Assembly: GCA_013336165.1 (NCBI GenBank) | Contig: JAAXUF010000006.1 | Location: forward strand, 1 to 64,000 | DNA length: 64,000 nt | DNA from: Coriobacteriia bacterium | Lineage (GTDB): Bacteria; Actinomycetota; Coriobacteriia; Anaerosomatales; JAAXUF01 | Direction: 5' to 3' | Part shown: positions 7,914 through 62,331 of the stretch, in pieces | How the letters are laid out: every line of letters starts with the position of its first letter | Position numbering within the stretch: position 1 is the first letter of the stretch | The notes under the pieces: generated by a model | What the model saw: only the letters and a program-made list of their open reading frames with translations | The model's database searches: none | Told to the model about the DNA's origin: nothing | Position numbers and translations under genes: made by a program

Positions 7914-7966
7914 ACGTGCCTCCTTCGTACGGACGCCGGGTTGCTCTCGGTACCCGGCGCGTCTCT

Positions 7967-8485
7967 TTAACCGCTGTGCCAATCCCGCTCGAACGCGCGG
8001 ATGCGCGGCTCGATGTGCCGGGCATGCGGATCGGCGATCGGCCGCCGGGCGACTACGAGAGCCATCGCGTCATCGGCGGACATTCCCGTCGCAATTAGGA
8101 TGCAGCAGGCCATAGCGACGCTTCGATGGCGTCCGGCCCGACAATGGACGAGGACTCGTCCTCCCGCATCAAGCACGGGCAGGGCGGCTTCCACTCCCTC
8201 TCTCAGCAACGCGATGGGGATCGGAAACAAAGGAAAGTCGATCATCGGCAAGCGAATGAACTTGGAAGGCGGCAGCATGAGATCTCTGGGCGGGCTGAAC
8301 CACGTCGTGCTCAGAACCAGGTTGACCCCCAGACTCCGCAGGTTGCCGGCGTGCCGGGCGTGCGGTCGGGCGGCAATGATCAACTGATCCGTGATCATGG
8401 ACGAATCGTACGGGGAAAGCACTACCTGAGTTGCGATGTCTGTATCCATGTCTTGGTAGATACCCATCGGCACCCACCACCACAT
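7967..8485 (-). CDS. Dual-specificity / tyrosine phosphatase-like protein
   Basis: A 172-aa soluble protein with the P-loop of cysteine phosphatases, HCRAGRHRS (C-x5-R), near residue 120, preceded by the usual hydrophobic strand (GGRVLV). Such enzymes dephosphorylate protein Tyr/Ser/Thr, phosphoinositides or RNA caps through a Cys-phosphate intermediate. The final third is Arg/His-rich (RRPIADPHARHIEPRIRAFERDW). The start is uncertain: the ATG at 8485 has a poor site, while the one at 8467 has a GGTGGTGGG stretch before it. It lies upstream of the lipid kinase on the same strand. The substrate is unknown; lipid phosphates are as likely as protein given the neighbour. Confidence 0.82.
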   Translation of the reverse strand: MWWWVPMGIYQDMDTDIATQVVLSPYDSSMITDQLIIAARPHARHAGNLRSLGVNLVLSTTWFSPPRDLMLPPSKFIRLPMIDFPLFPIPIALLREGVEAALPVLDAGGRVLVHCRAGRHRSVAMACCILIATGMSADDAMALVVARRPIADPHARHIEPRIRAFERDWHSG

Positions 8486-32874: not shown

Positions 32875-32928
32875 ATAGCGGAGAGGGGGGATTCGAACCC
32901 CCGTAACGCTCGCGCTACGGTCTTCGAG
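32875..32928 (-). repeat. Partial tRNA-Ser copy, outermost attachment-site remnant
   Basis: The segment reproduces the 3' half of tRNA-Ser on the minus strand (T-arm, variable arm and acceptor GGAGAGG region) and ends near the anticodon stem (TTCGAG). Compared with the intact tRNA at 47433-47522 it has three small indels/substitutions, so it is an older or different att copy. No 5' half follows. It marks the far edge of a stacked integration. Confidence 0.7.
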
Positions 32929-33847: not shown

Positions 33848-33930
<83 letters not shown>

Positions 33931-34047
33931 TCCCGCCTCTAGCGTTTCTGTCCGTATCTGCCCGTAGGCAGCTGGACCTATTCGCGCTGGTAAAAGTACC
34001 AGTTCAAGACCCAGGTGTATCTAGTGGGGCTCGCGCATACCCGCCTG

Positions 34048-35433: not shown

Positions 35434-36597
35434 ATGCAGGTAACGTTTCTTTCCCAACCGTTCGTCGCTGGAGAGCAGGCGGGGTCGGTTCTGTGTGACC
35501 TGCTACTGTCGGGGCGGTATTCGAGTTTCACGGCAGTGGTTGCGTGGGCTAAGGCCTCTGGACTCCGACGTATTTCGGAGCCGCTAAGCGAGTATCGCCG
35601 TGCAGGTGGTTACGCAAGTTGTTTCTTGGGCGTCGACGAAGGCGGTGCGTCCGTCGAAGGTCTACAACTGGCCGTTAGCTTGTTTGACGAAGTCCACGTC
35701 TTCCACGACCCGGGCTCACGCACGTTTCATCCGAAGATCTATCTGTTCGAGGAAGAGGCCTGTCAAGCCGTCATCGTCGGGTCTAGTAATTTGACGCGGG
35801 GTGGACTCTATTCCAACTATGAAGCTTCGGTATTGGTCGAATGTGACGGCGCTTCGGAAGACGATGGTCTATTCGTGACCTCCGTCCAAGGGTTCATCCA
35901 TCACTTGGCGAACATCGGTGATAGTTGCAGGGTGCTGGACGATGCCCTCCTCGCGGCGCTCATTGCAGGAAACTATGGTGTGAAGTCCGAGAGGTCACGC
36001 CGCGACGGCAATGCAGGGCAGGGTTCGGGCCGTGATCTTTTCGGTTCTTCAGTGAAGAATCTGCTGGGAGCACCAACGCTGCCCAGTGGCGCGCCAGATG
36101 ACAGCGCTGACTCCGACCGTTCTATGACTGACCCGGTAGTGGGCGAGCTGGAGGCTCACGAAGATGGCCTCCCCGTTTCCGGAGTCGTTGGATTCTGGAA
36201 GGAGCTTTCACAGAACGACGTTAGTCTAACGAGTTCCCCGGGCCAGATGATCGTGCCCATCCGGTTTCGTTCATTCTTCGAGCCGCTGACTCTGCAGAGC
36301 GGCACTCTTGCCGGAACTCAATACGAGCGACACATGCCACTGACGTTCGTGGATGGGGAGGATGTCATCACTGTTAGCGATGCCCGAGCAATTCTCTACG
36401 TCCCTGCACCGGGTCATCCGCGGCCTAACGAAGAGTTGAGATTCACGTTCAGAGACCGCGCGGTACTCGAACGACTCAGCCGAGGGGACTACTTGCTCTT
36501 CGAGCGTGCCAACCAGGGGGTTGTCGTTACCCGTTTCACAGCTGAGCAGGGGTCCGCCCACGGTCTTCAAGGCCGATTCGGGCCCACTGCCCTGTAG
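35434..36597 (+). CDS. PLD-family restriction endonuclease (BfiI / NgoFVII-like)
   Basis: A 387-aa protein. The N-terminal half carries a single phospholipase-D nuclease motif, H99-x-K101 followed by GSSNLT at 117-122, as in metal-independent PLD nucleases such as BfiI, which dimerise to build one active site. A low-complexity linker (about 190-245) leads to a C-terminal domain of about 140 aa that I take to be the DNA-recognition part. BfiI is 358 aa and works beside two N4-cytosine methyltransferases; here two methyltransferase genes follow within 51 nt. That arrangement supports a Type IIS-like restriction role over a lipase. The start has GGGGAGG upstream. The recognition sequence cannot be read from the protein. 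Confidence 0.82.
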   Translation: MQVTFLSQPFVAGEQAGSVLCDLLLSGRYSSFTAVVAWAKASGLRRISEPLSEYRRAGGYASCFLGVDEGGASVEGLQLAVSLFDEVHVFHDPGSRTFHPKIYLFEEEACQAVIVGSSNLTRGGLYSNYEASVLVECDGASEDDGLFVTSVQGFIHHLANIGDSCRVLDDALLAALIAGNYGVKSERSRRDGNAGQGSGRDLFGSSVKNLLGAPTLPSGAPDDSADSDRSMTDPVVGELEAHEDGLPVSGVVGFWKELSQNDVSLTSSPGQMIVPIRFRSFFEPLTLQSGTLAGTQYERHMPLTFVDGEDVITVSDARAILYVPAPGHPRPNEELRFTFRDRAVLERLSRGDYLLFERANQGVVVTRFTAEQGSAHGLQGRFGPTAL

Positions 36598-36648
36598 AGG
36601 CTTGATTCAGGTCTGGTAAATGTCGCACGCAGGGTCTAAGATGACGGC

Positions 36649-37605
36649 ATGGAAAAACGACTGGTTGAGCGAAGCAAAGTAATTGCCTATGAATGCGCGG
36701 TCTGCGCGCGAGCCACAGACGCTCCCGAGGGAACAGTACGCCTTGAGAGACGACTCTGTCGGGAGTGTTTCCCGAAGCGAGAGGATCGTCGCCCGAAGGA
36801 TCTAAATGACCTCACTGGGAAAGAGTGGGCACAGGCAAGCAAGAGCGTTGAGCAGTACCCCGATACCCGTTCACCGAAACAGAAACATCATGGTGCCTGC
36901 TTCCCTGAGGCTCTGGCCCTGCACCAAATCGGCATCTATACCAAGACAGGCGGACGAGTCTTGGACCCCTTCGTTGGCATCGGAACCACCCTGGATGCGT
37001 GTGCCGCTCTTGGTCGGCTCGGCGTGGGACTCGACATCAACCCGGATTTCATAACTGCGGCCAAGAACGATCTCTCAAATCGAAACGGCGGTGATAAGCA
37101 ATCCGTCATTGAGGCCGACGCGAGGAACCTTCTGACCTACGTGGAACCCGACACTATCGATTTCGTACTAACCAGTCCGCCTTACGGTCCACTGCTTCAA
37201 CAGTCCAAGCAGGCCTTCGCCTACAAATGGCGAGAGCACTCGCGCATCAAGGAAATGCCCAACCCGCTTCCATATTCGAACGATGATCGTGATCTAGGCA
37301 ATCTGGACTATGAGGATTTCCTAGGTGCCTTGGAGGAAGTCCTTGCAGGCACTCTCGGCGCTCTGAAGTCTCGCGGGTATGCAGCTTGGGTGGTCAAGGA
37401 CTTCAGGGCGCTGAAACGAGGAGTCCCCTATGTTAACTTCCACGGGGACCTCATAGAACGTGCCCAGAGAGTAGGCTTCGACTTGTGGGACCTGCGAATC
37501 TATGATCAAACCAAGTTCCGACCGCTCGTCTGCATGGGCTATCCCTCTAGCAACTTCTACCTCAACATAGGGCATTCGTACATCGTGGTACTTCGCAAAC
37601 CGTGA
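36649..37605 (+). CDS. DNA methyltransferase 1 of the restriction locus
   Basis: A 318-aa beta-class amino-methyltransferase. AdoMet motif I appears as DPFVGIGTT (about residue 106) and the catalytic motif IV as TSPPYG (about 175), the form common in N4-cytosine methylases. A zinc-ribbon-like start (CAVCAR...CRECF) precedes the catalytic core. It lies 51 nt behind the nuclease gene, and its stop overlaps the next methyltransferase start (GTGA). Its role is protection of one strand of the host site. Confidence 0.88.
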   Translation: MEKRLVERSKVIAYECAVCARATDAPEGTVRLERRLCRECFPKREDRRPKDLNDLTGKEWAQASKSVEQYPDTRSPKQKHHGACFPEALALHQIGIYTKTGGRVLDPFVGIGTTLDACAALGRLGVGLDINPDFITAAKNDLSNRNGGDKQSVIEADARNLLTYVEPDTIDFVLTSPPYGPLLQQSKQAFAYKWREHSRIKEMPNPLPYSNDDRDLGNLDYEDFLGALEEVLAGTLGALKSRGYAAWVVKDFRALKRGVPYVNFHGDLIERAQRVGFDLWDLRIYDQTKFRPLVCMGYPSSNFYLNIGHSYIVVLRKP

Positions 37606-38780
37606 CGACACGTCAGCCAACGGCGTCTGCTATCGTTCGCATCCAGGAGTTCTTGGCGGACCTCAACCGATGCCAAGACAAGAACTCATTGACCCATGGG
37701 ATGCATCCGTATCCAGCGAAGTTCATTCCACATATTCCACGAATCCTGATCGAGTCGTTTGCCCCTGCGTCTTCGGTTGTTCTTGATCCAATGTGCGGAT
37801 CAGGCACATCACTCGTTGAGGCCACGCTGCTGGGACACCCTGCGATCGGCATTGATATCAATCCGATCGCGACTTTGATCAGTCGGGCAAAGACATCGGT
37901 TATCCATCCTAGCGGGTTGCGGCGAATTGGAAGAATAGCCGACGACGCGGCTCAGATGGCGCTGTGTGTTTCGACAATGCCTACGCTTCTGGAAAGGGAA
38001 ATCGCAAGGGAAGAACTGCCTGTCTTTCTGAATCGCGACAAATGGTTCACTCAACAGTGTCTCTACGAGTTGCAGTACTGCAAAAGGCTAATAAGCGCCT
38101 TGGATGACGATCTGCTTGTTACCGTGGCTCAGACGGCGTTCTCTGCGATTGTCGTCGCAGTATCAAACCAAGAAAGCGAGACGCGTTGGTGCGCGAAGAC
38201 TAACGAACTGAACCCAGGTCAAGTACTCAACAAGTTCGCTATGAAACTGAGAGATTGCGTTTCGAGGCTCACCCTCTATGCAGACGCAAGTCCCTGCGAG
38301 GCCTGTGTGTATGAGGCGGACGCGCGGAAGATACCCCTCGACGACGAGTGCATCGGCTTCGCGATCACAAGTCCACCATACGCCAGCGCGCATGACTACT
38401 ATCTCTACAACAAGTTGCGCATGTTCTGGCTGGGCTCGGACATCCGTTCGGTGCAACAGGCTGAGATCGGTTCAAGGTATCGACACAACGACAAGAAGGA
38501 GCCCGTGTCGGTCTACATGGACGAGATGCAAGAAATACTAGGCGAATGTCAACGGGTGCTGATCCCGGGTGGGTTCTTTGCTGTGGTAGTGGGAGATGCG
38601 GTGGTACACGGAGAGCTTCACGACATGGGACGCGAGTACACCGTGGCAGCCAACAATAGCGGATTGAGCCTTGAGACAAGTTGGACATTTGACCACGCGA
38701 GCTTCAACTCGGCTTTCCAAAGAGGTTTTGGTTCGGGGCATCGCAAGAAGACCCATGTCCTGCTGCTTCGGAAGAGGTGA
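37602..38780 (+). CDS. DNA methyltransferase 2 of the restriction locus
   Basis: A 392-aa amino-methyltransferase starting at GTG (37602) within the stop codon of the first one. Motif I is DPMCGSGTS (about 61) and motif IV TSPPYASAHDYY (about 256), again the beta-class order. It carries an N-terminal HPYPAKFIP segment typical of this methylase group. Two enzymes are needed when a Type IIS site is asymmetric, so each could modify one strand. It is longer than its partner by a helical insertion between motifs I and IV. Confidence 0.88.
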   Translation: MTTRQPTASAIVRIQEFLADLNRCQDKNSLTHGMHPYPAKFIPHIPRILIESFAPASSVVLDPMCGSGTSLVEATLLGHPAIGIDINPIATLISRAKTSVIHPSGLRRIGRIADDAAQMALCVSTMPTLLEREIAREELPVFLNRDKWFTQQCLYELQYCKRLISALDDDLLVTVAQTAFSAIVVAVSNQESETRWCAKTNELNPGQVLNKFAMKLRDCVSRLTLYADASPCEACVYEADARKIPLDDECIGFAITSPPYASAHDYYLYNKLRMFWLGSDIRSVQQAEIGSRYRHNDKKEPVSVYMDEMQEILGECQRVLIPGGFFAVVVGDAVVHGELHDMGREYTVAANNSGLSLETSWTFDHASFNSAFQRGFGSGHRKKTHVLLLRKR

Positions 38781-39604: not shown

Positions 39605-40771
39605 CTAGCTTCCGGTCCGCGCTTGCGCTTCTCCAAGCATTCTGTCGAAGCGGTCCGCCGCCGCCGCATCCATCCCCGGCAGCACGTGCGTGTAGGTATC
39701 GAGGGTAAGCGTCGCCGTGGAATGTCCTAGACGATCCGAGACAACTTTCACCGACTCACCAGCCTTGAGCAGAAGTGTTGCGTGCGTGTGGCGAAGATCG
39801 TGGAAGCGCACACAGAAACCGTTGGTGCCGCAGAACTTTGCGAAACGACTGGTGAGCCTGTCCGGCGGATAGGGTGAACCATCAGGTTCAGCGAAGATGA
39901 GGTCCTGCTTGTGATATCCGGGCCCAATGAGCAGTCGCTCCTCGGCTTGGCGGCGTTTGTACGACGTCAGCTCGGAGATCGTCTGTCCCGGCAAAGCAAT
40001 CGTGCGCCGACTCTTTGCCGTCTTTGGATCCTTGAAGGACAAGCCTGTCCGTTGTGTGGTCTGCAGCGATCGTCTCACCGTGGCAGTGCGCGCTTCGAAA
40101 TCAAGATCGGACCATCGGAGAGCGAGTATCTCGCCTCGACGCATGCCCGTGGTCAGCGCCACGTGGGAAGCCATATAGAGCGTGCGGTCGCCTTCTCGCA
40201 GAAGTCCTAGCATCCGCGCGACCTCCTGCTCGTCTAGGGCGTGCATCTCCTTGCGCCGTGGCCTAGGTGATTCGACGGCATCGCAGGGATTTGAGTGGAG
40301 CAGCCCCAAGCGCACCGCGCGTTTCAGCGCAGCATGCAAGACGCGATGAATGCCCTGGACCGTCCGCTCGCTGACTGGGCCTCGTCCCGAGCCGTTCTGC
40401 AGTGCATCGGAATACAACCGCTCAAGATGAGCTGGCGTGAGTTTCTGTAGCTGGACTGCACCGATTCGAGGAATCACGTACCTGTTGCACACCCCTTGGT
40501 ACCCTTCGGTGGTTGTGGCGGCGAGGTGCTTCTGCTCGCAATGCCTCACGTAGTCGTCAAGATAGGCAGCGACCGTCTGTTTCGTGGGATCAATGTGTGT
40601 GCCCTCGTCAATGTCATGGCGAAGCTCCCGGCTCTTGCGCTCAGCGTCAGCCCGAGTCCCATGCACCCGGACCTGCATACGCCGGTAGCGCTGGGTCTTC
40701 TCATCCCATCCGCGACTGACTCTGACCTCCCACGCATTGTCGCGTTTACGGATTCCGTCCCGTTTACCCAT
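39605..40771 (-). CDS. int: Tyrosine recombinase integrase of the tRNA-Ser island
   Basis: A 388-aa phage-type integrase. An N-terminal arm-binding region (GIRKRDNAWEVRVSRGWD...) is followed by a SAM-like core-binding domain and the catalytic domain. Catalytic residues are seen in TGMRRGE (Arg, about 210), HDLRHTHA (His-x-x-Arg, about 324), LGHS (about 345) and DTYTHVLPG (nucleophile Tyr, about 357). It should catalyse insertion and excision at the tRNA-Ser repeats. Unlike most such integrases it is in the middle of the element, 6 kb from one border and 7 kb from the other. Its start overlaps the stop of the upstream unknown gene by 8 nt. Confidence 0.93.
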   Translation of the reverse strand: MGKRDGIRKRDNAWEVRVSRGWDEKTQRYRRMQVRVHGTRADAERKSRELRHDIDEGTHIDPTKQTVAAYLDDYVRHCEQKHLAATTTEGYQGVCNRYVIPRIGAVQLQKLTPAHLERLYSDALQNGSGRGPVSERTVQGIHRVLHAALKRAVRLGLLHSNPCDAVESPRPRRKEMHALDEQEVARMLGLLREGDRTLYMASHVALTTGMRRGEILALRWSDLDFEARTATVRRSLQTTQRTGLSFKDPKTAKSRRTIALPGQTISELTSYKRRQAEERLLIGPGYHKQDLIFAEPDGSPYPPDRLTSRFAKFCGTNGFCVRFHDLRHTHATLLLKAGESVKVVSDRLGHSTATLTLDTYTHVLPGMDAAAADRFDRMLGEAQARTGS

Positions 40772-42001: not shown

Positions 42002-42258
42002 TGAGCGGCCCAATCGATATCGTTTTGGAGCGTCTCGATGAGGCACGGCCTTGCGGCACCGGGTGGCGAGCATGCTGTCCGGCGCACGGGGATACAAACC
42101 CAAGCTTGAGCATCAGTGAAGGCGCTGACGGACGCGTACTTATGCACTGCTTCGCGGGTTGCTCGATCGAAGATGTGGTCTACGCCCTTGGGCTCGAAAT
42201 GCGCGACCTGTTTCCCCGTTCGAACGATCAGGATTGGCGGCGGCATCATGGCATCTAG
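41998..42258 (+). CDS. CHC2-type zinc finger of a DnaG-like primase (separate peptide)
   Basis: An 86-aa peptide holding a primase zinc-binding module: CCPAHGDTNPSLSIS, then HCFAGCSIEDVV, and ALGLEMRDLF. In most primases this finger is the N-terminus of the TOPRIM protein. Here it ends in its own frame, and the next gene starts 11 nt before its stop, in the +1 frame. It may work in trans with the TOPRIM-helicase, or the two could be joined by ribosomal frameshifting. Confidence 0.85.
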   Translation: MMSGPIDIVLERLDEARPCGTGWRACCPAHGDTNPSLSISEGADGRVLMHCFAGCSIEDVVYALGLEMRDLFPRSNDQDWRRHHGI

Positions 42259-44344
42259 GCAATCACTAGGCCCGCAAAGCTCCGCGATCGGATGTTGCTT
42301 GGCAGAATACGCGTCCTCCAAGAAACTCCCGGTCGAATTCCTCCATGGATTGCAGCTGCAGGATACGACCCACAGTGGAAGACCAGCCATTCTCATTCCA
42401 TATCGCGACGAGGATGGTCAGGACATAGCAATACGCTACCGGCTGAGCATGGAGGGACAGCGCTTCGTTTGGCGCAAAGGTGCCCGCGTGGCCCCGTACG
42501 GACTGGACCGTCTGTCTGATGCGCGCAAGGCGGGCTACATTATTCTTGTCGAGGGGGAATCGGACGCCCAAACCTTGTGGCATCACGGGGAACCGGCGCT
42601 GGGGCTTCCGGGAGCCAGCACATGGAAAGAGGAGTGGGCGTCTTCGCTAGACGATATTCAGGTGATCTACGTCTTTGAAGAATGCGACAAGGGTGGCGAA
42701 ACGCTCATCAATGCTCTCTCGAAGTCTGCGCTCGCGCCCCGCATCCGAGTCATTCGCACAGCGTATGCCAAGGACCCCAGCGAACTGCACGTCCAAGATT
42801 CGAGTGCATTCGCAACACGATGGCGCTCGCTGCTGATTGGTGCTGACCCACTGCCCCCACTGTCTCTCGAACAGAATAAGGGGAAGGACTCAACAAAGAC
42901 AGAGATCCTTCTCAAGCTTGCAGATGGCGTCGAACTCTTTCATTCGCCCGATGGGTCACCCTTTGCCTCTGTTGTCGTCAATGATCGCCGCGAGACATGG
43001 CCAGTTCGTTCCAAGGCATTTCGCCGCTGGCTCTCGGGACACTTCTATGAGCACAACGGCAAGGCTGCAGGAGGGCAGGCACTTCAAGATGCGCTTGATG
43101 TCCTTGAAGCGAAAGCACAGTTCGATGGGTGCTGCCGTGACGTGTTCGTTCGACTCGCCACCTATGAGGACTCAATCTACCTTGATCTCGCCAACGAGGA
43201 ACGCGAGATCGTAGAGATCACCGCTCATCGCTGGAAGACCGTGTGTGATGGCCCTGTGCGCTTCCTCCGTCCGAGCGGGCTCCTTGCGTTACCGCGTCCC
43301 ATGATGCCGGGGAGCGTTGAGCTTCTCCGACCGTTCGTAAACGCAGGCAGTGACGACGACTTCCGGATACTTGTCGCCTTCCTCCTTGCCGCCCTGCGGC
43401 CAGACGGCCCGTACCCAGTCCTAGTCCTCATGGGGGAGCAAGGATCAGCGAAGTCGACAACGGCGCGCGTCCTGCGGGCCCTTGTCGACCCTGCTACGCC
43501 TCCGCTGCGAACCACACCTCAGAGCGAACGCGACACAATGATCGCGGCCAAGAACACATGGATGCTCGTATTCGACAACGTCTCAGGACTGTCTCCGTGG
43601 CTCAGCGATACCTTCTGCCGTCTCTCGACTGGAGGCGGTTTCGCCACCCGAGAACTCTACACGGACTGCGACGAGATTCTGTTCGACGCCAAGAGACCGA
43701 TCGTTCTCAACGGCATCGGAGACTTGGTCGGCCGTCAGGACCTTACTGATAGGTGTCTTCTCGTCACACTCCCGCCAATCACTGACGAAAGTCGACGGGA
43801 TGAGGCAGGGTTCTGGGCAGAATTCGAAGCTGTGCGAGCGGGAATCCTCGGCGGGCTGCTCAATGCAGTTTCATGCGCACTTGCGAACATCGACAGCGTC
43901 ATCCTTCCCTCAGCACCACGAATGATAGATTTTGCTCGGTGGACCACGGCTGCAGAGCCCTCATTTGGCTGGGCACCCAAGTCCTTCGTTGCTGTGTACT
44001 CAAGAAACCGGCGTAATGCGATTGATGTCGCACTCGAGACCGATCCTGTCGCAACAGCCGTGCGTGAACTCCTCGAGGTAGCTGAGAGCGAAACTTGGAA
44101 TGGCACCATGAGCGAGCTGCTGGAAAGCTTGGAGAATCCGCCGGGGCAGATGCGGCATCCGCGCGATTTGCCACGCACCGCGAAGGACCTCTCAATCAGG
44201 CTCGACCGTGCATCCCCTACTCTTCGGGCAGTAGGCGTGGAGATTCGCAAGCATCGCGGGTCAGGCAGACGATCACGATTGGTCGAGATAAGGAAGGTTG
44301 CATCCCGCACCGACGTTTGCGACGCGTTCGACGCCCCCGCATAG
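42248..44344 (+). CDS. TOPRIM primase-helicase replication protein
   Basis: A 698-aa protein. The N-terminal third carries a TOPRIM-like fold (YIILVEGESDAQTL at about residue 99 and VIYVFEECDKGG at about 140). The C-terminal half is a DUF5906-like helicase with Walker A GEQGSAKSTTARVL (about 395-405), Walker-B-like WMLVFDNVSGL and a sensor-like VLNGI. It should prime and unwind element DNA. The start ATG overlaps the finger gene by 11 nt. The helicase half is closely related to that of the protein at 58533-60890, while the N-terminal halves are unrelated. The last codons overlap an inverted 9-bp repeat cluster. Confidence 0.87.
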   Translation: MASRQSLGPQSSAIGCCLAEYASSKKLPVEFLHGLQLQDTTHSGRPAILIPYRDEDGQDIAIRYRLSMEGQRFVWRKGARVAPYGLDRLSDARKAGYIILVEGESDAQTLWHHGEPALGLPGASTWKEEWASSLDDIQVIYVFEECDKGGETLINALSKSALAPRIRVIRTAYAKDPSELHVQDSSAFATRWRSLLIGADPLPPLSLEQNKGKDSTKTEILLKLADGVELFHSPDGSPFASVVVNDRRETWPVRSKAFRRWLSGHFYEHNGKAAGGQALQDALDVLEAKAQFDGCCRDVFVRLATYEDSIYLDLANEEREIVEITAHRWKTVCDGPVRFLRPSGLLALPRPMMPGSVELLRPFVNAGSDDDFRILVAFLLAALRPDGPYPVLVLMGEQGSAKSTTARVLRALVDPATPPLRTTPQSERDTMIAAKNTWMLVFDNVSGLSPWLSDTFCRLSTGGGFATRELYTDCDEILFDAKRPIVLNGIGDLVGRQDLTDRCLLVTLPPITDESRRDEAGFWAEFEAVRAGILGGLLNAVSCALANIDSVILPSAPRMIDFARWTTAAEPSFGWAPKSFVAVYSRNRRNAIDVALETDPVATAVRELLEVAESETWNGTMSELLESLENPPGQMRHPRDLPRTAKDLSIRLDRASPTLRAVGVEIRKHRGSGRRSRLVEIRKVASRTDVCDAFDAPA

Positions 44345-44432: not shown

Positions 44433-44519
44433 CACCAACGTCCAGCGAATGAGCAGACGCGCGCGCAACCTCACAGGTCAGTCTACCTCTTGGCGTTCTG
44501 CTCGATGCCTTTGTTAGGC
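44433..44519 (-). repeat. Candidate integron attC site 2, degenerate at one side
   Basis: On the minus strand it begins GCCTAACAAAGGCATCGAGC, identical to the opening of the better site at 46641-46722, and closes with GAGCAGA/TCTGCTC arms and a degenerate core GTTGGTG. The ATPase stop codon is inside it, as is common for cassette genes. The outer core pairs over only about five bases, so it may be decayed. Confidence 0.55.
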
Positions 44520-46624
44520 GTCTCCGCCTTGCTTGCGTCAAACGGAATCTCAAAGACAATTGGCTTCTCAGAACGCACCCACTTGCCAAATGCAACGGCA
44601 TGCAGCGGCGGAAGATTGGGGATCAACGCGACATGCTCCGGGCCGAAGATGTTACGAAGGAAGCCAAGGCTGGTGTCGTCGTAGCAGGTGAAACTGATGA
44701 TCGTGTTGCATTGCGTCAACACGGTCTTGCTAACGGTGGCGGTTCTCTGGGCGAGGACGAGCAGTCCAACCCCATATTTCCTGCCCTGAAGAGCAATCTG
44801 TCCAATCTTTCCAACGAGACCCTTGGAATCGAAATCGCCGAGTCCCATTGTGTTCGGCTCAGGCATTACGGTGTGAGCTTCCTCAACTACGATGAGGGTG
44901 CGCGGACAGGTTCCATGATTCTCGCGGGCATATTTGAGCAGACACGTCATATAGAGCTCAGTAATCCAGAGCGTGGCCTTGGTGTTGGAGATTTCCTCGA
45001 GCCGAATGAGCCCCAGGTGAGATGTCGCATCGTCGCTCAGGAATCCGGCGACCGAGGTAGTCACATCAGATCGTAGGGCCTCCGCAAACTCGTTCAGCGC
45101 CTTCTTTTCCCCTGGAGCGCCGTAAGTTCCAGTCTCGACATCGAATAGCTTGTCCCCAAGCTCCTTGGCGGTCTTCTCGTCTATCGAGAGGTCGACCGGA
45201 TTCAAGTCCGAGAGCCGCTCTTGATACTGGGCCGTAAGATCAATGCAGACGACGCGAATGTCGTTGTCTAATGCATGTCGAATTAGGTCGAAGGCAAGCT
45301 CGGTCTTTCCCGAGCCCGTAACCCCGAGAAGTGCAGTGTGATAGTTGTAGTCAGCCGAGAAATCGCCGCCAATCTGGATGCACGAGTTGGGAATCGTTCC
45401 AAGGATGAAGTCCCCATCGCGCGTAGCGGCAGTTTCAATTGCACAGCCCTTCGACGCCGAGAACACCGGAGTGTTCATTGTAGGAAGCCATTCGAACTTG
45501 CGAAATCCCGTGTGCTCGAGAAGCATGCCGAGCTGAGCGGCTGCAGCGACTTGGAACCCGTGCTTGTCCGTCGCGAACGACTCCTCCCGCGTCTCGCCGG
45601 CAACAACTTGATAGAAGACGCGTTCGCCTGCAACTTGCGACCACACAAGCATTCCGTCGTGACATGATTCTGGTGAGAGGGTCTCGAACCGTATGCCCCC
45701 GATGGTGGAGCCCTCGACCACGAACCCGACGAGCGACGCATTGACCCCGCCACCAAGCGACTGCGTGATTGCATCCAAACTCGGGGGAATAACGCCTTCA
45801 CCGGGCCGCAGAACACAGTTCTTTGCTCCTTCAGTCGAGGGAGCGTCTAGGCTCGTGACAAGACCGGTTGCCAGAAGGTGGTCGTCTTGAAACTGCGAGT
45901 AGAGCGGCTGCACCCACTGCGATTGCCCGCTTGGAAGGACGCATACGCATGGCTCGTCTGGCTTCCAGCTCGCTCCGCCATCAAGTGCAACCCGCAGGAT
46001 ATTGGGACTGTCAATACGGACAATCTGTCCCAACGCCTTCGCTGACGGCGTACTCCGGTCGAACCAAGCTGTGATGAGCTCCGGAAGTTGCAGTGGCCAT
46101 ATCGCGACGAAGATTCCCCAGAAGAGAACGAGCGCAAGCGTGATGGGTTCTTGAACTGAGAAGAAGAACCACAATCCGAAGATGAAGACAACGGAAAACA
46201 AGACGCGTGCGCTTCCAAGCACGATTGACGGACGATATGTGTGACTCGCGACCCAATCCCTCCAGCCTGTGAGGCCAGGTTTTGAGCTAGCCGCAACGCA
46301 GGCAGTACCCAAGACAAATACAGCCACGCAATACGAGGATACTGCGATCCACGGCCAGATCGGAGCAATCGCGTAGACGCTGAGGAGCGTGATGAAGCCC
46401 ATGAGCGAATTGACTATTGAGTCTGCGGGCTTCGTGTACTGATGCTCGAGGAGCGCAGATCCCAGCACGATCAAGAGAAGGGCGTTTTGGAAGACCAGCG
46501 CCTCACGAGGGTTGTGCGGAAGTAGACTCCCGGTGAAATACAGCGACATTCCAGCAATTGCTGCGGTTGCCACCAACATGATCGCAACGCGCACCCACGG
46601 GTCAACCCGCATGTCGTTCGTCAT
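44483..46624 (-). CDS. Membrane-anchored HerA/DUF87-type ATPase in a cassette
   Basis: A 713-aa protein: about six N-terminal membrane helices (residues about 12-190), then a beta-rich HAS-barrel-like region and an FtsK-HerA ATPase with Walker A GVTGSGKT (about 428-435) and Walker B LIVVEEAH (about 578). HerA-type motors translocate DNA; membrane-tethered forms occur in defence islands and in DNA-transfer systems. Its ATG is 14 nt after one attC-like core (GTTAGGC), and its stop lies inside a second, which is the compact layout of an integron cassette. No nuclease partner such as NurA or SIR2 is next to it. Function unknown; anti-phage defence is a reasonable guess. Confidence 0.85.
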   Translation of the reverse strand: MTNDMRVDPWVRVAIMLVATAAIAGMSLYFTGSLLPHNPREALVFQNALLLIVLGSALLEHQYTKPADSIVNSLMGFITLLSVYAIAPIWPWIAVSSYCVAVFVLGTACVAASSKPGLTGWRDWVASHTYRPSIVLGSARVLFSVVFIFGLWFFFSVQEPITLALVLFWGIFVAIWPLQLPELITAWFDRSTPSAKALGQIVRIDSPNILRVALDGGASWKPDEPCVCVLPSGQSQWVQPLYSQFQDDHLLATGLVTSLDAPSTEGAKNCVLRPGEGVIPPSLDAITQSLGGGVNASLVGFVVEGSTIGGIRFETLSPESCHDGMLVWSQVAGERVFYQVVAGETREESFATDKHGFQVAAAAQLGMLLEHTGFRKFEWLPTMNTPVFSASKGCAIETAATRDGDFILGTIPNSCIQIGGDFSADYNYHTALLGVTGSGKTELAFDLIRHALDNDIRVVCIDLTAQYQERLSDLNPVDLSIDEKTAKELGDKLFDVETGTYGAPGEKKALNEFAEALRSDVTTSVAGFLSDDATSHLGLIRLEEISNTKATLWITELYMTCLLKYARENHGTCPRTLIVVEEAHTVMPEPNTMGLGDFDSKGLVGKIGQIALQGRKYGVGLLVLAQRTATVSKTVLTQCNTIISFTCYDDTSLGFLRNIFGPEHVALIPNLPPLHAVAFGKWVRSEKPIVFEIPFDASKAETPNKGIEQNAKR

Positions 46625-46640
46625 CCAGTCCCCCCTGTAC

Positions 46641-46722
46641 GCCTAACGTCTGAGGCATGAGCGGTGGTCATGCCCAACATTAGCGTACCGCATCGGCCAT
46701 CCGCTCGATGCCTTTGTTAGGC
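46641..46722 (-). repeat. Integron-type attC site 1
   Basis: 82 bp. Outer cores GCCTAAC (46641-46647) and GTTAGGC (46716-46722) are perfect complements and fit RYYYAAC/GTTRRRY. Inner arms AGGCAT+GAGCGG (46653-46664) pair with CCGCTC+ATGCCT (46701-46713), with one unpaired base at 46707 and a further bulge. Bulged bases between imperfect arms are a hallmark of attC recombination hairpins. Short unpaired spacers and a loop of about 30 nt complete the shape. It directly follows the stop codon of the 88-aa gene upstream on the same strand. Confidence 0.72.
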
Positions 46723-46734
46723 CCCAGACGTTGC

Positions 46735-47001
46735 TCATCTCATGGCGGTCATCGCGGCGCTAATCAGCGTATCGCCGACATGCACTGCAACGGTTCCCTC
46801 ATACGTAAAGCCTGCGTCCCCCACCTCGCGTGGCGTCGCTTGCCGATATGCGCTTCGACCCTCACGCACCAGAATCGAGAACCTTCCGTCCATGGCTAAG
46901 GCTTGGACGATCACAACGCAAGAATCGCCGCAGGATGACTCGTGAGACCCTTTGATTCTCGCAAGCGGCACAGCCTCACGGATTGCTCCAGCCACTGGCA
47001 T
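46735..47001 (-). CDS. 88-aa cassette protein, unknown
   Basis: The ATG at 47001 follows AGAGGTG by about six nucleotides; a longer upstream frame lacks a site and is not credible. The protein is small and strand-rich, with one CGDSC pair, VREGRSAYRQATPREVGDAG in the middle, and a hydrophobic end (VAVHVGDTLISAAMTAMR). Its stop is 13 nt from an attC-type site, as expected for a cassette gene. Two very short ORFs overlap or abut it upstream. No homology recognised. Confidence 0.6.
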   Translation of the reverse strand: MPVAGAIREAVPLARIKGSHESSCGDSCVVIVQALAMDGRFSILVREGRSAYRQATPREVGDAGFTYEGTVAVHVGDTLISAAMTAMR

Positions 47002-47014
47002 TACGCACCTCTTC

Positions 47015-47065
47015 TCAGTTGATCTCGACACAGCGCTTGCCGCCCCAATGTGCCTCGTCAGCCAT
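47015..47065 (-). CDS. 16-aa mini-ORF in the cassette ladder
   Basis: MADEAHWGGKRCVEIN. Its ATG overlaps the end of the 48-aa ORF, and its stop is 13 nt before the 88-aa gene. It could be a coupling leader or a peptide. Support is only the tight packing. Confidence 0.3.
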   Translation of the reverse strand: MADEAHWGGKRCVEIN

Positions 47066-47204
47066 TCTCGAAGCCCGAGTACGGACAGATGTCGCATTCG
47101 GGACACGTCGCCATGTCGCGAGTGGAGTCGGGGCAGTCCGACGGCGAATCGATTTCTGGCGCGGGGATTTGCGCCTGCGGGGTAGCGCCTTCTTGATCGT
47201 CCAA
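47058..47204 (-). CDS. 48-aa Cys/Pro-rich small protein, first gene of the cassette ladder
   Basis: It starts at TTG (47204) eight nucleotides after GGAGGG and stops at 47058. The peptide is acidic at the start (MDDQEGATPQAQIPAPEID) and ends with clustered cysteines (DCPDSTRD, CPECDICPYSGF), a possible zinc knuckle. It overlaps the 16-aa ORF by 8 nt. It is likely real given the strong ribosome binding site, but unrecognised. Confidence 0.45.
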   Translation of the reverse strand: MDDQEGATPQAQIPAPEIDSPSDCPDSTRDMATCPECDICPYSGFENG

Positions 47205-47343
47205 AGTGAACCCTCCTCACGGATCTCGGCTCGTACGCCTACTCTTGTTTGTACGGTCGGTATATCACACCCTCCACAGATCTGGCTCTGTAAGTCTGTA
47301 AATGAGAAGCAGCTCTAGCGCATAGACACGAGCGTAAGACAAG

Positions 47344-47372: not shown

Positions 47373-47412
47373 AAAAAGAGACGCGAGCCCGGCGCTTCGG
47401 AAAGCGTCCGGG
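47373..47412 (-). terminator. Rho-independent terminator of tRNA-Ser
   Basis: Imperfect hairpin CCCGGCGCTT / AAGCGTCCGGG (47388-47397 with 47402-47412) read from the minus strand into TTTTT (47373-47377), 21 nt past the tRNA 3' end. Part of it is copied at 33827-33857, so it lies within or next to the att footprint. Confidence 0.75.
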
Positions 47413-47490
47413 ATCGCATATGCCCAGCTACATGGCGGAGAGGGGGGGATTCGAACCCCCGTAACGCTCGCGCGCTAAACGGTTTTCGAG
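47408..47490 (-). repeat. attR-type direct repeat of the tRNA-Ser island (83 bp)
   Basis: Partner of 33848-33930. This copy belongs to the intact tRNA gene, so insertion restored a functional tRNA. Confidence 0.9.
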
Positions 47491-47522
47491 ACCGCCGCAT
47501 TCAACCACTCTGCCACCTCTCC
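47433..47522 (-). tRNA. tRNA-Ser (anticodon CGA)
   Basis: 90-nt class II tRNA on the minus strand: acceptor GGAGAGG with CCTCTCC, discriminator G and encoded CCA (47433-47435), D-arm GGCAGAGTGGTTGAATGC, anticodon loop CTCGAAA (CGA, reads UCG), long variable arm GCGCGCGAGCGT-like, T-loop GTTCGAATC. It is the integration target of the neighbouring island. Confidence 0.95.
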
Positions 47523-56406: not shown

Positions 56407-56973
56407 CTAGCCTTTCCTTCTCAGCGCACCTTCCAGTTCTTCGTCGAAGACATGCGTATAGATCATCGTCGTACTCACGTCGGAATGCCCCAACGCCTTC
56501 TGCACAAGCCGGATGTTCTTGGTCTTCCGCAGCAAGTCGGTTGCGAAGGTATGCCGCAAGATGTGGGGCGTGACGCGCTCCGCCTCCGCGACTCCGGCCT
56601 TAACGGCGTAGTGCTTTACCATCGTTCGCAGGTAGCGAGTGTTGAGCTGCTCCCCGTCCCGAGTCGGAAACAGCCACGGTGATGCCGGCCTTCTTCCAAG
56701 CCAGAGCCCGATGAGGTCACGCAAGTCGTCTGAAATCCAGAGCACGCGATCCTTAGCGCCTTTGCCCTCTCGGACCATCAACCGGCAAGTCATCATATCG
56801 AGGTGTTCTGGCCGCAAGGCGACGAGCTCCCCTGCTCACAAGCCGGCTTCAAGAGCGACGCGCAGAATGCAGCGATTGCGCAGACCTGATGCATATCGGG
56901 GATTCGGCTGCGAGACCAGGCGGCGCTGTTCCTCGGGTGTCAGAACCTTGGGCAGTTTTTTCGGTCGTGCCAT
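56407..56973 (-). pseudogene. Tyrosine recombinase broken by one in-frame stop
   Basis: From MARPKKLPKVLTPEEQRRL to the end at 56407 the reading frame encodes a recombinase catalytic domain, with HILRHTFAT, LGHSDVSTTMIYTHV (nucleophile Tyr) and a C-terminal basic tail. One TGA interrupts it where the family has Arg (EAGL-stop-AGELVALRPEHL), consistent with a CGA-to-TGA change. There is also no N-terminal core-binding domain, so the gene is truncated as well as nonsense-mutated. A leftover integrase next to the second mobile region. Confidence 0.75.
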
Positions 56974-57201: not shown

Positions 57202-57305
57202 GATGTGCCCGACGTGTCCTGATGTGTCCTGACGTGTCCGGCCATGGACGGACTGGATGCGAACGCCTGGGCACATGCGGATACGTCGGGCACATCGGGC
57301 ATGTC
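57202..57305. repeat. Inverted iteron cluster A, upstream of the second replicase
   Basis: Forward units GATGTGCCC, GACGTGTCCT, GATGTGTCCT, GACGTGTCCG at 57202-57240, a 28-nt spacer, then inverted units at 57269-57305 (GGGCACATGC, GGATACGTC, GGGCACATC, GGGCATGTC). The motif is GA(C/T)GTG(T/C)CC in a 9-10-bp period. The region 56974-57201 has no gene. Confidence 0.6.
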
Positions 57306-57344
57306 ATCGCGAGCAACTTCCCCATGTATCCCAAATACTCAGAC

Positions 57345-58430
57345 CTAGCCCCCAGTGACCCACTTGAGCACGGTCACAGACTTGGTGGCGCGGTAGCCCT
57401 CTTCTTGCTCGAGGATCTTGACGATCTGTTCCGGGGTCCGCGAGGAATCCTCACCGTGCAACTGAACTGCGCGCGCTTTTCGCTTCTCGTATGCAAGCTG
57501 CTTGCACACCTGATCACAGTAACGTCGGTTGCCTCTCGCCACGTCTGGGTGATGGATGCGCCATTTTCCGCAGCTACGGCATTTCAGGAAAGTCGAAGAA
57601 GTCCCTTGAGCCTGCCCGATCTGATACCACATGAAGCGCCACAGGCTATCGGGGACGATCTGGAGTTGATGAGCACCCCGAGAGCCCCGAACGACACCAA
57701 AAGCCAAACCGGTCGAGAGAAACGCATTAGTGAGGTCTGCAAGGAGGGCCTCTCGATATTCTCGGTCGTACACCTCTTCTTGCCCTCGTCGCGGCACAGG
57801 AACGCGGCTGTCTTCTGCGCCCCCTGTGAGCATCGTGGAAATCGTGATGTGACCGAAAGCCCTTCGCGGGCCCATGTCGGACTTCCCTCTGAGCCACGAT
57901 GTTACCCAGGAGCGAGCACGAGCCTTGTCGCCCAAATCGGCGTCGTTGTCAGCCTGCCACAGGCGAGCAGCCAGATGCAGTAGTTCTGCTGCCGTCTTCC
58001 AAGTGGCAAGTGACTCCCCGGACCGATGGTAGAGTCCACGCTCGGAATCAAGAATGAGGGAAGGCAAGTCCTCTCGGACTCCCAGCAAACCAGAGTCGCG
58101 TGCGAACTCAAGGCAGCGAGCCTGAAACGCCTCACCTTGCACTTCTGCTATTTCAGCGAAGTCCAAGAAGAGTGCTGTGTGCTCTCCGTCAAACGGGTCA
58201 TAGCGTGCTGCACCTTGCATCTCGGCCAGTCGCTCTATCGCAGGGCGCCCGAGAGCTTCGTCGTATCGCTCGGCCCATGGCATCTCGCCGACCTCGTCGA
58301 CCACAGGCCAACCACAAAGCCAGGTCTTCTCCGTCAGGTGATCATTAGAGTCCACGCTAATCCATGTGGCGCATGCAGGAGCCTTTTCCCAGGTGAACGG
58401 GGCTATCGATGCAGGTTCCGCGTTGATCAT
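57345..58430 (-). CDS. Unknown protein with a C-terminal zinc finger, second element
   Basis: A 361-aa soluble protein. Near residue 290 is a zinc-finger motif CRSCGKWRIHH...YCDQVCKQ followed by a Lys/Arg-rich helix, in the style of CGNR-type fingers. The rest is helical and acidic with no clear domain. The start ATG (58430) is four nucleotides after GGAGG; an overlapping GTG at 58433 is less likely. Divergent from the prim-pol gene across 102 nt and beside iteron cluster A, so it may bind DNA there and act in element regulation. Confidence 0.65.
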   Translation of the reverse strand: MINAEPASIAPFTWEKAPACATWISVDSNDHLTEKTWLCGWPVVDEVGEMPWAERYDEALGRPAIERLAEMQGAARYDPFDGEHTALFLDFAEIAEVQGEAFQARCLEFARDSGLLGVREDLPSLILDSERGLYHRSGESLATWKTAAELLHLAARLWQADNDADLGDKARARSWVTSWLRGKSDMGPRRAFGHITISTMLTGGAEDSRVPVPRRGQEEVYDREYREALLADLTNAFLSTGLAFGVVRGSRGAHQLQIVPDSLWRFMWYQIGQAQGTSSTFLKCRSCGKWRIHHPDVARGNRRYCDQVCKQLAYEKRKARAVQLHGEDSSRTPEQIVKILEQEEGYRATKSVTVLKWVTGG

Positions 58431-58532
58431 CACGCCTCCACTTACGCTTTCTCGACAGTTAGCGTACCCCCGTTAGCGGTCTCATACAAGCAATGAGTTC
58501 CAATACCGGAGCTCGAGACTCTAGGAGGCCTT

Positions 58533-60890
58533 ATGGGTACCGTTGGAAAAAAGCTGGACTCCTCTATCCCAGGGGAACTGCGCGCGCTCGATCAATGGGT
58601 GTGCGCGAAAAGCAAGGTGCCGGTCCGTCCGGCAGATCCATCACGGAATGCGAGCGTGAGCGACCCGACCACCTGGGCGAGCTTCACGCTGGCGCAAGCA
58701 AAAGTAGACACAGGGGCGGCGGACCACGTCGGCTTTGTCTTTACTGCCGACGACCCCTTCGTCGGGCTCGACCTGGATCACTGCCTCGATAGTGATACTG
58801 GGGTGCTTGACCACCGAGCCGTTGAGATCATCGCCTTGGCGGCCACCTACACCGAGATCTCGACTTCGGGCACGGGGCTGCACTTGTTCTTCCGCGGGAG
58901 GGTCCCTCATCCCGTCAAGACCGGCGGGATTGAGATCTATGGCTCGGGGCGCTACTTCGTAACGACCGGCAACCACCTCGAGGGTACGCCTGCATCAATC
59001 CGTGAGGTCGGTGATGTGCTTGGGCTGCTCGCGGAGTTCCTTCCTGAGCGCGCCGAGCCCGCGGCAAAGCCCAAGTCCCTTGTCTGCGTGGCCGACACCG
59101 AACTCAAGAGTGCTGACAAAGATCTGCTCGGCATCCTGCAGCGCGGCAAGAAGGCCCGCGCGAAGTTCGAGGCGCTCTGGGCCGGAGACTGGCAGCGCGC
59201 TGATAGCTACTCTTCACAGTCCGAGGCCGATCTCGCGCTCGCCTGCCTCATTGCCGACAAGACTGAGAGCCCGGCACAGATCGACCGGCTGTTCCGACAC
59301 TCGGGGCTCATGCGCCCCAAGTGGGACGAGGTCCACTATGAGACGGGTGAGACCTATGGTAGCCGCACGATAGCCATCGCGCTCGAGTCGGCTGCCTCTC
59401 ACGAGCATGCCTCGACCACCCAAGTCGAAGAGCTACTGTCCCTGCCTCAGGATCTTGAGCTCTTCTGTGACCAAAGCGATGCGGCCTTCGCCTCGTCAAG
59501 TATCAACGGGCATACCGAAATCCATGGCATAGAGTCCTCCTCATTCGAGAGGCTGCTCACCATGCTGTTCTTTCGTAAGTGTGGCCGTGCCCCCGGGACT
59601 GAGGTCATGAAGTCGGCAATCGCGACACTGGTGGCACGTGCCCGCTATGAGGGTCGGACCGAGAACGTCTTTCTCCGCGTTGGGCATGCGGCAGGCAAGG
59701 TATACCTGGACCTTGCCGATGACGCCTGGAGGGTTGCCGAAATCGATGCTTCCGGCTGGCGCATCCTGAACGCAAGCCCTGTGCGGTTTAGGCGCCGCTC
59801 CGGCATGCTTTCCCTTCCTGCTCCTGAGGCTGGGGGGTCGCTTGCCGAGCTTCGTCCATGTCTAAACGTGGCTGATGATGAGACCTGGGCGCTTGTCCTC
59901 GGGCTGCTCGTAGGCTTCCTGCACCCGACTGGCCCCTATCCGGTAGGCATCCTGCATGGTGAACAGGGTTCGGCCAAGTCCACGACCGCCCGCATTCTGC
60001 GCGCCCTGATAGACCCCGCCAAGCCCGCGCTTCGCGGTACGCCTTCCACCATCGACGACCTGATGATCGCCTCATCCAACTCGTGGGTGCTAGCTTTTGA
60101 CAATCTCTCCAGTGTCAGCGCCAGCTTCTCGGACGCGTTTTGCCAGCTTGCCACCGGCGGCGGGTATGCCAAGCGCAAGCTCTACCGGGATGACGATGAG
60201 GTTCTATTCGACCTCAAGCGCCCTATCCTCATCAACGGCATCACTGACCTTGCCTCACGCGCTGACCTGGCCTCCCGCGCCCTGATCCTGCGCATGCCGC
60301 ATATCACGCCCGAGAAGCGCCGTCTTGAGACCGACATCGTGAGCGTCTTCGAGGCCATGCGCCCTCGGCTTCTAGGCGCGCTTCTGGATGCTGTTTCCTG
60401 CGCGCTTTCCAACGTGGGTTCGGTCAAGCTCATCGGACACCCGCGTATGGCTGATTTCGCGGCGTGGGTCGTGGCCTCCGAGCCGGCACTCCCGATCGCG
60501 CCTGGCTCGTTTCTAGCGGCCTATGAGGCAAGCCAGGCCGAGACCGTACTTGCGGGTCTCGAGAGTGACCCGGTGGCGGTTGGCATCCTTGATCTTGCAT
60601 ATCGTGAGCCAGGGTGGACCGGCACGATGGGTAAGCTTCTGTCCGAGCTCAATAGCGCGATAAACCCCAGCTACCAGAGCGGTCAGTGGTGGCCCAGAAC
60701 TGCGCGCGCGCTCGGCAACCGCCTCGACCGCCTGGCTAGCTCCTTGTCTACGGCGGGCGTCACGCCTGAGCGTCGGCGCGACAATGACCATAACCGCCGC
60801 CGCATCATCGTGCTCAACGTTGATCCATTCGTTCCCGAGATCGGGCTTGACGACGATATGCTTGCCCTGCGTGTGAAACGCGCGAGCTAG
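58533..60890 (+). CDS. Primase-polymerase/helicase replicase of the second element
   Basis: A 785-aa protein. The N-terminal region looks like an archaeo-eukaryotic prim-pol: VGFVFTADDPFVGLDLDHCL (metal-binding D-x-D near residue 79) and EISTSGTGLHLFFRG (about 108-120), as in NrS-1/ORF904-type enzymes. After a linker comes a helicase with Walker A GEQGSAKSTTARIL (about 476-486), WVLAFDNLSSV and LINGITDL. The helicase half is strikingly similar to residues 330-640 of the TOPRIM protein at 42248, but the primase half is unrelated. The ATG follows TAGGAGG. It would replicate the excised element alone. Confidence 0.87.
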   Translation: MGTVGKKLDSSIPGELRALDQWVCAKSKVPVRPADPSRNASVSDPTTWASFTLAQAKVDTGAADHVGFVFTADDPFVGLDLDHCLDSDTGVLDHRAVEIIALAATYTEISTSGTGLHLFFRGRVPHPVKTGGIEIYGSGRYFVTTGNHLEGTPASIREVGDVLGLLAEFLPERAEPAAKPKSLVCVADTELKSADKDLLGILQRGKKARAKFEALWAGDWQRADSYSSQSEADLALACLIADKTESPAQIDRLFRHSGLMRPKWDEVHYETGETYGSRTIAIALESAASHEHASTTQVEELLSLPQDLELFCDQSDAAFASSSINGHTEIHGIESSSFERLLTMLFFRKCGRAPGTEVMKSAIATLVARARYEGRTENVFLRVGHAAGKVYLDLADDAWRVAEIDASGWRILNASPVRFRRRSGMLSLPAPEAGGSLAELRPCLNVADDETWALVLGLLVGFLHPTGPYPVGILHGEQGSAKSTTARILRALIDPAKPALRGTPSTIDDLMIASSNSWVLAFDNLSSVSASFSDAFCQLATGGGYAKRKLYRDDDEVLFDLKRPILINGITDLASRADLASRALILRMPHITPEKRRLETDIVSVFEAMRPRLLGALLDAVSCALSNVGSVKLIGHPRMADFAAWVVASEPALPIAPGSFLAAYEASQAETVLAGLESDPVAVGILDLAYREPGWTGTMGKLLSELNSAINPSYQSGQWWPRTARALGNRLDRLASSLSTAGVTPERRRDNDHNRRRIIVLNVDPFVPEIGLDDDMLALRVKRAS

Positions 60891-60900
60891 CCCCGAACGT

Positions 60901-60992
60901 GACCTGACCGACGTGCCCGATGTGTCCGATGTGACCGCTCGCCTCTACTTGTGCGCGTTCACACGGGCACATCGGACACGTCAGGACACGTC
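60901..60992. repeat. Inverted iteron cluster B, downstream of the second replicase
   Basis: Forward units GACCTGACC, GACGTGCCC, GATGTGTCC, GATGTGACC at 60901-60936, then 28 nt, then inverted units GGGCACATC, GGACACGTC, GGACACGTC at 60965-60992. The unit and the 28-nt spacer match cluster A. It begins 10 nt after the prim-pol stop. Confidence 0.6.
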
Positions 60993-61120
60993 GATCGGAC
61001 CTAAAACAGCGCTCATCCGCAACGCCCATGGGTGCGCCGCTGTGAATCTCTCCCACGGACCGCTTTATTCCTCGCACCGCGAGCTCAATGATCACGTCAC
61101 AACCGATACAGGAGGTATCC

Positions 61121-62071
61121 ATGCACCCCGAACAAACGCTCGCCGAGTACCTGAAGTGCTGGCTTGAGGACTACGCAATGCCCAACGTAGCCGGCAAGAC
61201 CTATGAGCGCTACGAACGCATCGTCCGGCTCGACGTCGTGCCCCACCTCGGGCACGTGAAGCTCGCTGACCTAAAGCCCCTACAGATCCAGTCGTTCTAC
61301 TCAGAGTTGCTTCGCTCAGGCCGCAAGAAGGGCGGAGGGCTTGCACCCTTGACCGTCCGCCACATCCATCGGCTCCTGCACAAAGCCCTCTACCAGGCAG
61401 TCCGATGGGAGTTGATCGGGAGGAACCCCGTCGACGGTGTGGATGCTCCCCGGGTGCAGCGCAAGGAGATGAACGCGCTGGATCGTGAGGGCCTTACCCG
61501 GCTTCTGAACCTGCTACGCGGTACCAAGTTCTACATGCCTGTCATCATCGCTGCCACGACCGGTATGCGCAGGGGCGAGATCATGGCGCTGCGCTGGTCG
61601 GATGTTAACTTCGATGCCGGCACCCTGCGAGTGAGTCGCTCTCTTGAGCAGACGGGTAACGGGCTCGCGCTGAAGGAGCCGAAAAGCCGCTATAGCAAGC
61701 GGACGATCTCACTGGCCCAGGCAACGGTAGATGCACTGAGAACGCATCGCGCCAACCACGACACGGGGCCCGAAGGCTTGATCGTGTGCCGGCCTGACGG
61801 CACGTACTGGCCCCCTGACCAACTCTCAGCGGAATTCCACAGAATAGTACGCAGAAATGGCTTTACCATCCGCTTTCACGACCTGCGCCATACACACGCC
61901 TCAAACCTGCTGCGTGACGGTGTGCCAATCAACGTGGTTTCGCGACGGCTCGGTCACTCAGAACCCTCGATCACCCTGAATGTGTACTCGCACGTGCTTC
62001 CCGGCATGCAGGAGGAAGCGGCTGCTAAAGTGGACCTGATGATGGATGATGTGCTCAGGAATGCCAGCTGA
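61121..62071 (+). CDS. int: Tyrosine integrase of the second element, lacking an arm-binding domain
   Basis: A 316-aa integrase starting MHPEQTLAEYL after AGGAGGTATCC. The core-binding domain and catalytic domain are complete: TGMRRGE, FHDLRHTHAS, LGHSEPSITLNVYSHVLPG with the Tyr nucleophile. Compared with the 388-aa integrase at 39605 it lacks the N-terminal arm-binding part (the first about 60 residues), although the two are clearly related. Either it uses simple sites or it is a shortened copy. It lies at the right end of the prim-pol element. Confidence 0.88.
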   Translation: MHPEQTLAEYLKCWLEDYAMPNVAGKTYERYERIVRLDVVPHLGHVKLADLKPLQIQSFYSELLRSGRKKGGGLAPLTVRHIHRLLHKALYQAVRWELIGRNPVDGVDAPRVQRKEMNALDREGLTRLLNLLRGTKFYMPVIIAATTGMRRGEIMALRWSDVNFDAGTLRVSRSLEQTGNGLALKEPKSRYSKRTISLAQATVDALRTHRANHDTGPEGLIVCRPDGTYWPPDQLSAEFHRIVRRNGFTIRFHDLRHTHASNLLRDGVPINVVSRRLGHSEPSITLNVYSHVLPGMQEEAAAKVDLMMDDVLRNAS

Positions 62072-62082
62072 GGGGACACTAA

Positions 62083-62331
62083 ATGGACGAGCGAAGAATG
62101 ACCGAGCAGGAAGCAGCGCGCGACTTCCCTGATGAGTACGCCAGGCTATCGAGTCGCCCAGAGAATACCGATCGAGTGTGGGCGTACCAAGAGACTGAGC
62201 ATCGGCCCGGGCTCGTCCGTATCCCCCGGCTCGCTCTCTTCGCGACTGGCTCTGAGGGCCGAGTTCGCATCACAGTCGACGGCAATGGTTTCAGCGTGAA
62301 CAACAACACCGACGACGAACCCAGAGACTAG
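62083..62331 (+). CDS. Hypothetical 82-aa protein after the integrase
   Basis: It begins 12 nt past the integrase stop, with GAGGGG upstream of its ATG, so it is likely co-transcribed. N-terminal half acidic and helical (MDERRMTEQEAARDFPDEYARL), C-terminal half strand-rich (GRVRITVDGNGFSVNNN). Not recognised. Possibly a small element-encoded regulator. Confidence 0.55.
   Translation: MDERRMTEQEAARDFPDEYARLSSRPENTDRVWAYQETEHRPGLVRIPRLALFATGSEGRVRITVDGNGFSVNNNTDDEPRD

Follow-up and report, generated by a model that had tools for sequence, protein, structure and literature searches.

How do two gene cassettes of the integron type come to lie inside a tRNA island, in a stretch of bacterial DNA that holds no integron integrase (IntI) match over the cut-off? 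The stretch, hereafter the window, is 64,000 nucleotides of a Coriobacteriia bacterium (C6:1-64000 of assembly G000; contig C6 has 131,779 bases), and the pair sits in a genomic island of 13.6 kb whose anchor is tRNA-Ser(CGA) (Table 1). The reading we favour, with a probability of roughly 0.8, is that both are bona fide cassettes away from their platform, that the IntI of the resident chromosomal integron moved them into the island, and that the ATPase carried by the larger one is a cassette-borne, defence-associated HerA protein.

Table 1. Features of the cassette pair and of the island around it (positions in the window; carets mark junctions or crossover points)
Feature	Position	Strand	Details
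Far direct repeat (tRNA-Ser 3' part)	33848..33933		84/86 identical to 47408-47493
Probable restriction-modification module	35434..38780	plus	PLD-domain protein and two DNA methyltransferases
PLD-domain protein	35434-36597	plus	PLDc_2 1.4e-6
Two DNA methyltransferases	36649-37605, 37602-38780	plus	PADLOC MTase_II 9.7e-31 and 7.3e-50
Island tyrosine integrase	39605..40771	minus	Phage_integrase and Phage_int_SAM_3, Pfam 4e-23
Island primase/replication-like protein	42248..44344	plus	PADLOC RTasDnaG-like 1.4e-8
attC2	44433..44519	minus	Closes cassette 2; outer arms degraded; R' box GTTGGTG continues into island sequence after G^TT
Cassette 2	44439..46646	minus	2208 bp; membrane HerA ATPase gene and attC2
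Membrane-anchored HerA/DUF87 ATPase	44483..46624	minus	713 aa; stop inside attC2
attC1	46641..46722	minus	Complete site, closes cassette 1; R'' GCCTAAC 46722-46716, R' GTTAGGC 46647-46641
Cassette 1	46647..47241	minus	595 bp; small ORFs only and attC1; boundaries read from sequence
Cassette 1 ORFs	47204-47058, 47001-46735	minus	48 aa (TTG start) and 88 aa (ATG start)
Left junction	47239..47245	minus	AGAG^TAGGC, one T short of canonical G^TTAGGC (GTTRRRY)
Near direct repeat	47408..47493		86 bp, covering 3' part of tRNA-Ser(CGA)
tRNA-Ser(CGA)	47433-47522	minus	

The surrounding element is recognisable as a tRNA-integrated island by its tRNA-derived direct repeats and its tyrosine integrase. A short repeat, ATTCGGGGCGAATTCGGGGCGAAA, recurs with variants just inside both island ends and near the integrase, placed as arm-type sites would be. 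A search of the order found no close relative of the island, the best full match to its primase-like protein reaching 43% identity and the best partial match 50%. Elsewhere in the window, positions 57300-62100 hold a second, related island with a tyrosine integrase at about 61122-62072 and a primase-like gene (59.4-60.8 kb) 43% identical to the 42248-44344 protein, and a third, partial copy of the tRNA-Ser repeat at 32875-32928 is perhaps the end of an older island.

The cassettes were initially annotated as being without an integrase, which is true of the window and not of the genome, since an intact intI and 73 further attC are found in the same assembly. In a profile search of the whole assembly, the full-length intI on contig C22 scored 482.8 bits against a cut-off of 265; it is followed on that contig by cassettes with attC, and intI and cassettes share one direction. 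The genome yields 76 attC matches (C18 44, C9 15, C22 and C23 seven each, the window two, C15 one), and those on C22, C18, C23 and C9 would together form one chromosomal array broken by assembly. A C22 cassette at about 240-830 resembles a toxin-antitoxin pair by eye. The site attC1 is closest to one from its own genome (88% identity, on C18, against 76% elsewhere), and attC2 is 93% identical to C18 sites, compared elsewhere with no more than 92% in a short segment and 90% when most of the site is covered. Judging by this similarity and by the presence of intI, the pair may well derive from the resident integron.

The steps would then be as follows. IntI from the C22 integron would act in trans on folded attC strands and excise the cassettes, either as a single two-cassette circle or singly in succession, and insert them in the tRNA-Ser island, at an attG-type target (G^TT, not attI) between the primase-like gene and the island attachment site. 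Thereafter the island could let the ATPase travel with restriction-modification cargo. Action in trans and the direction of movement, from integron to island, are both what we infer; against the trans model, intI and the window sit on different contigs of a draft assembly. Because the attribution is based on attC similarity and intI presence, the cassettes could also have arrived with the island, which would have picked them up in some other member of the order before integrating, cassettes included, at tRNA-Ser. The island is built for mobility, with its 86-bp repeats and its own integrase, and sites resembling attC2 are present in many of the order's genomes; yet both attC are nearest this genome's own array, and a second stray insertion on contig C15 points to the resident system itself as the source of such insertions. 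Arrival with the island is thus possible, if on the unlikely side.

The C15 insertion (5360-8328) has an apbE-like gene on one side and 2-oxoacid oxidoreductase genes on the other, and contains the stray attC at 7401-7486 and a weak second one at 5360-5445 (18.1 bits). Its left junction is canonical (CCAGATG^TTGGGC) and its right junction, G^TTCTTT, falls at the end of the apbE-like gene; in the porB/apbE neighbourhood of five relatives, no apbE was found beside porB. Cassettes at non-classical attG sites have precedent, for which Loot et al. 2024 is cited in PMC11023631, PMC12901181 and PMC12444791. With attG cassettes and CALIN (PMC9024848) the window pair shares attC cassettes off the integron platform and, at its right junction, the G^TT crossover of a target other than attI, but it differs in being a natural pair in a tRNA island, with a left junction one base short and a candidate target. 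Sedentary chromosomal integrons are described in PMC12409362, with reference to Darracq 2025 and Kieffer 2025, as stores of anti-phage genes. As far as that description goes, the resemblance lies in a large attC array with intI and in cassette genes related to defence, and the difference in the gene, which encodes a membrane protein of a length unusual for a cassette (713 aa) and has its place outside the array. Cassettes in a mobile-type island away from the resident array would open a route by which genes in storage spread with no need of a mobile integron.

What the second cassette carries was described from the outset as a membrane HerA-like ATPase, and this is borne out from several sides. 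The protein matches DUF87 in Pfam (25.9 bits, cut-off 23.2) and the PADLOC HerA model (5.7e-20), keeps the Walker A and B motifs as invariant columns of its alignment, as befits a HerA/DUF87 protein, and begins with about seven hydrophobic, membrane helices. Its AF2 model (pLDDT 80.7) retrieves HerA with Foldseek at 6e-20, the best match being HerA of S. solfataricus, and the solved structures nearest to its fold are HerA proteins, most of them from anti-phage complexes. In SIR2-HerA (Nezha) and DUF4297-HerA complexes the same motor core is matched by sequence and fold; unlike these, cassette 2 encodes the ATPase only, with membrane helices at its N-terminus, and neither it nor cassette 1, whose small ORFs belong to no known family, supplies a SIR2 or DUF4297 partner. 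The 161-aa ORF of the cassette 1 region found no family in Pfam or PADLOC, and cassette 1 DNA had no match in phages. The HerA-NurA translocase likewise has the HerA fold in common with the ATPase, which differs in being membrane anchored and in having no adjacent NurA gene.

Relatives of the ATPase point in the same direction. The nearest homologues (62-68% identity) belong to other phyla and come from Deltaproteobacteria, Desulfobacteraceae, Phycisphaerae and Gammaproteobacteria MAGs, and copies of the gene beside attC in other genomes, which the initial annotation proposed to look for, do occur: homologues lie between or beside attC at L042 (62% identity), L040, L047, L048, L050 and L115. 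On a Phycisphaerae contig the gene fits exactly between array attC at 2028-2090 and 4227-4289; Marinobacterium and Microbulbifer copies have attC on both sides, Marinobacter and Desulfobacteraceae copies immediately downstream, and a copy from Alcanivorax (33% identity) upstream. Across 81 loci a gamma-type covariance model, R2, gave 14 matches, all within five attC-flanked loci; four of these five supplied training sites, so that the independent part is the match at L040, the extra sites at L047 and L115, and the lack of matches in the other loci. In the tree the window ATPase falls in a supported six-member clade (97/96) spanning several phyla, and six of the seven attC-flanked copies form part of a single supported clade of 13 (99/98). 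The attC types vary by host, and the ATPase gene is common to all.

Other relatives adjoin type I restriction, MmeI, HNH, abortive-infection and AbiE genes, and the cassette neighbours of homologues include Mrr and TIR proteins. Because relatives keep company with restriction, abortive-infection, Mrr and TIR genes, defence appears the likeliest role for the ATPase, and the gene is presumably expressed; it would belong to a defence-associated, membrane-anchored HerA family and probably form a hexameric motor at the membrane, acting on incoming DNA. It is probably a cassette-borne anti-phage gene that circulates across phyla. A doubtful alternative gives it a part in DNA transfer or conjugation coupling, as an ATPase aiding the island's movement, an idea to which the membrane anchor, a weak TrwB_AAD_bind match in Pfam (19.7 bits, under the cut-off of 20.5) and a homologue near a TrwC relaxase (L051) lend themselves; however, sequence and fold are nearest HerA, the most informative neighbours of its homologues are restriction or abortive-infection genes, and the island proteins that were scanned included no recognisable relaxase.

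We would extend the picture only tentatively, to chromosomal integrons that repeatedly export cassettes to mobile islands throughout the order, and to a membrane HerA defence cassette that circulates across phyla with a different attC type in each. If this were true, one gene with a different attC per phylum would mean that attC are exchanged or that cassettes form repeatedly around the gene. Finding one ATPase gene with several attC types across phyla makes it possible to test directly how cassettes come by their attC.

The junctions show how the pair meets the island. At the right-hand one the last attC runs into island sequence after G^TT, the crossover expected at a non-attI target. For the base absent from the left junction, single-base loss would be the simplest reading. 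The initial annotation's third boundary, AGTAGGCGTAC, is read correctly, with the cassette start at 47241, and the ATPase start and its stop inside attC2 were likewise placed correctly. The ATPase gene lies in sense orientation between consecutive minus-strand attC; with the sites in minus orientation, it thus points toward its own attC, as genes in cassettes normally do. Taking the cassettes away predicts an island sequence of AAACAAGAG^TTGGTGAATCG, and comparison with relatives found no empty target site in any of them. An 18-mer of this predicted target had a single match in viral contigs, with no flanking homology, and was taken as chance.

A complete integron would have intI and attI beside the cassettes; the locus has two attC and no intI next to them, which makes it a CALIN. 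Many CALIN are considered degraded integrons (PMC9024848) and attC2 is eroded, so one might see here the remnant of a former complete island integron that lost intI and attI. We reject this as very improbable: the stretch from the cassettes to the tRNA holds no trace of intI or attI, island sequence flanks the cassettes on both sides, with an arm-type-like repeat 100 bp beyond the left junction, and the IntI-like match at 56437-56970 is a broken tyrosine recombinase, with an in-frame TGA, outside the island.

The two sites are genuine integron attC. Pattern-based attC finders missed or over-called sites, and covariance models were used instead. The training set of the model R1 included both window sites; to guard against circularity, R3 was built without them, from 18 attC on contigs C18, C22, C23 and C9. 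In a search of the 64-kb window with R3, attC1 scored 69.7 bits (E 1.4e-18) and attC2 43.9 bits (E 9.5e-11), at the positions where the initial annotation had put them, and there was no third site, the next-best match reaching 9.4 bits (E 3). With R1, attC1 scores 76.2 bits on the minus strand against 13.6 on the plus, far enough apart to identify minus as the canonical orientation. Over 20 sites the 19-pair structure covaries, with 95.8% of cells paired and 44 cells changed on both sides, compared with a shuffle mean of 16. Of the expected elements (R'' RYYYAAC, R' GTTRRRY, and paired L''/L' arms with an unpaired extra base), attC1 has all, and attC2 has them with a degraded R' box and outer arms.

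Folding as single-stranded DNA, a check proposed at the start, upheld one site of the two: attC1 folds much better than its shuffles (z -5.3 and -4.0), and attC2 does not rise above its own (z about -0.5). The cause lies in the mismatched outer L''/L' arms of attC2 and in its R' box, GTTGGTG, which departs from the consensus. With attC2 folding at shuffle level, the array may be frozen. In appearance attC2 is a mosaic, its R''/L'' half like the GGCAT subtype and its L'/R' half like the GCGAAT subtype of resident attC. The shuffle-level fold of attC2 by itself could be turned into an argument that the hairpins are chance, terminators or a repeat family unrelated to integrons, a reading of negligible probability that we reject in view of leave-out E-values of 1e-18 and 1e-10, the strand asymmetry, the covariation and the same repeats coming after intI in the same genome.

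The initial annotation was right about the tRNA island, but its description of the cassette pair as unexpected in an actinobacterium needs qualifying: with IntI in 47 of the order's roughly 69 genomes, integrons are no surprise in this lineage. Counted at E 1e-60 or better, IntI was present in 47 of the 159 genomes sampled from the class (69 of them from the window's own order), all 47 being members of that order, a single-contig genome (G014) among them; none was found in about 90 class genomes outside it or in 14 control genomes. A literature search found no report joining an integron integrase with Coriobacteriia and none of integrons in this order, and a 2022 survey of complete genomes recorded no complete integron in Actinobacteria (PMC9024848), with which, if the phylum is Actinomycetota, the frequency of IntI here contrasts. 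The order would be one outside the classical integron groups, and IntI is common in it. A sample of the phylum gave IntI in 14 of 296 genomes.
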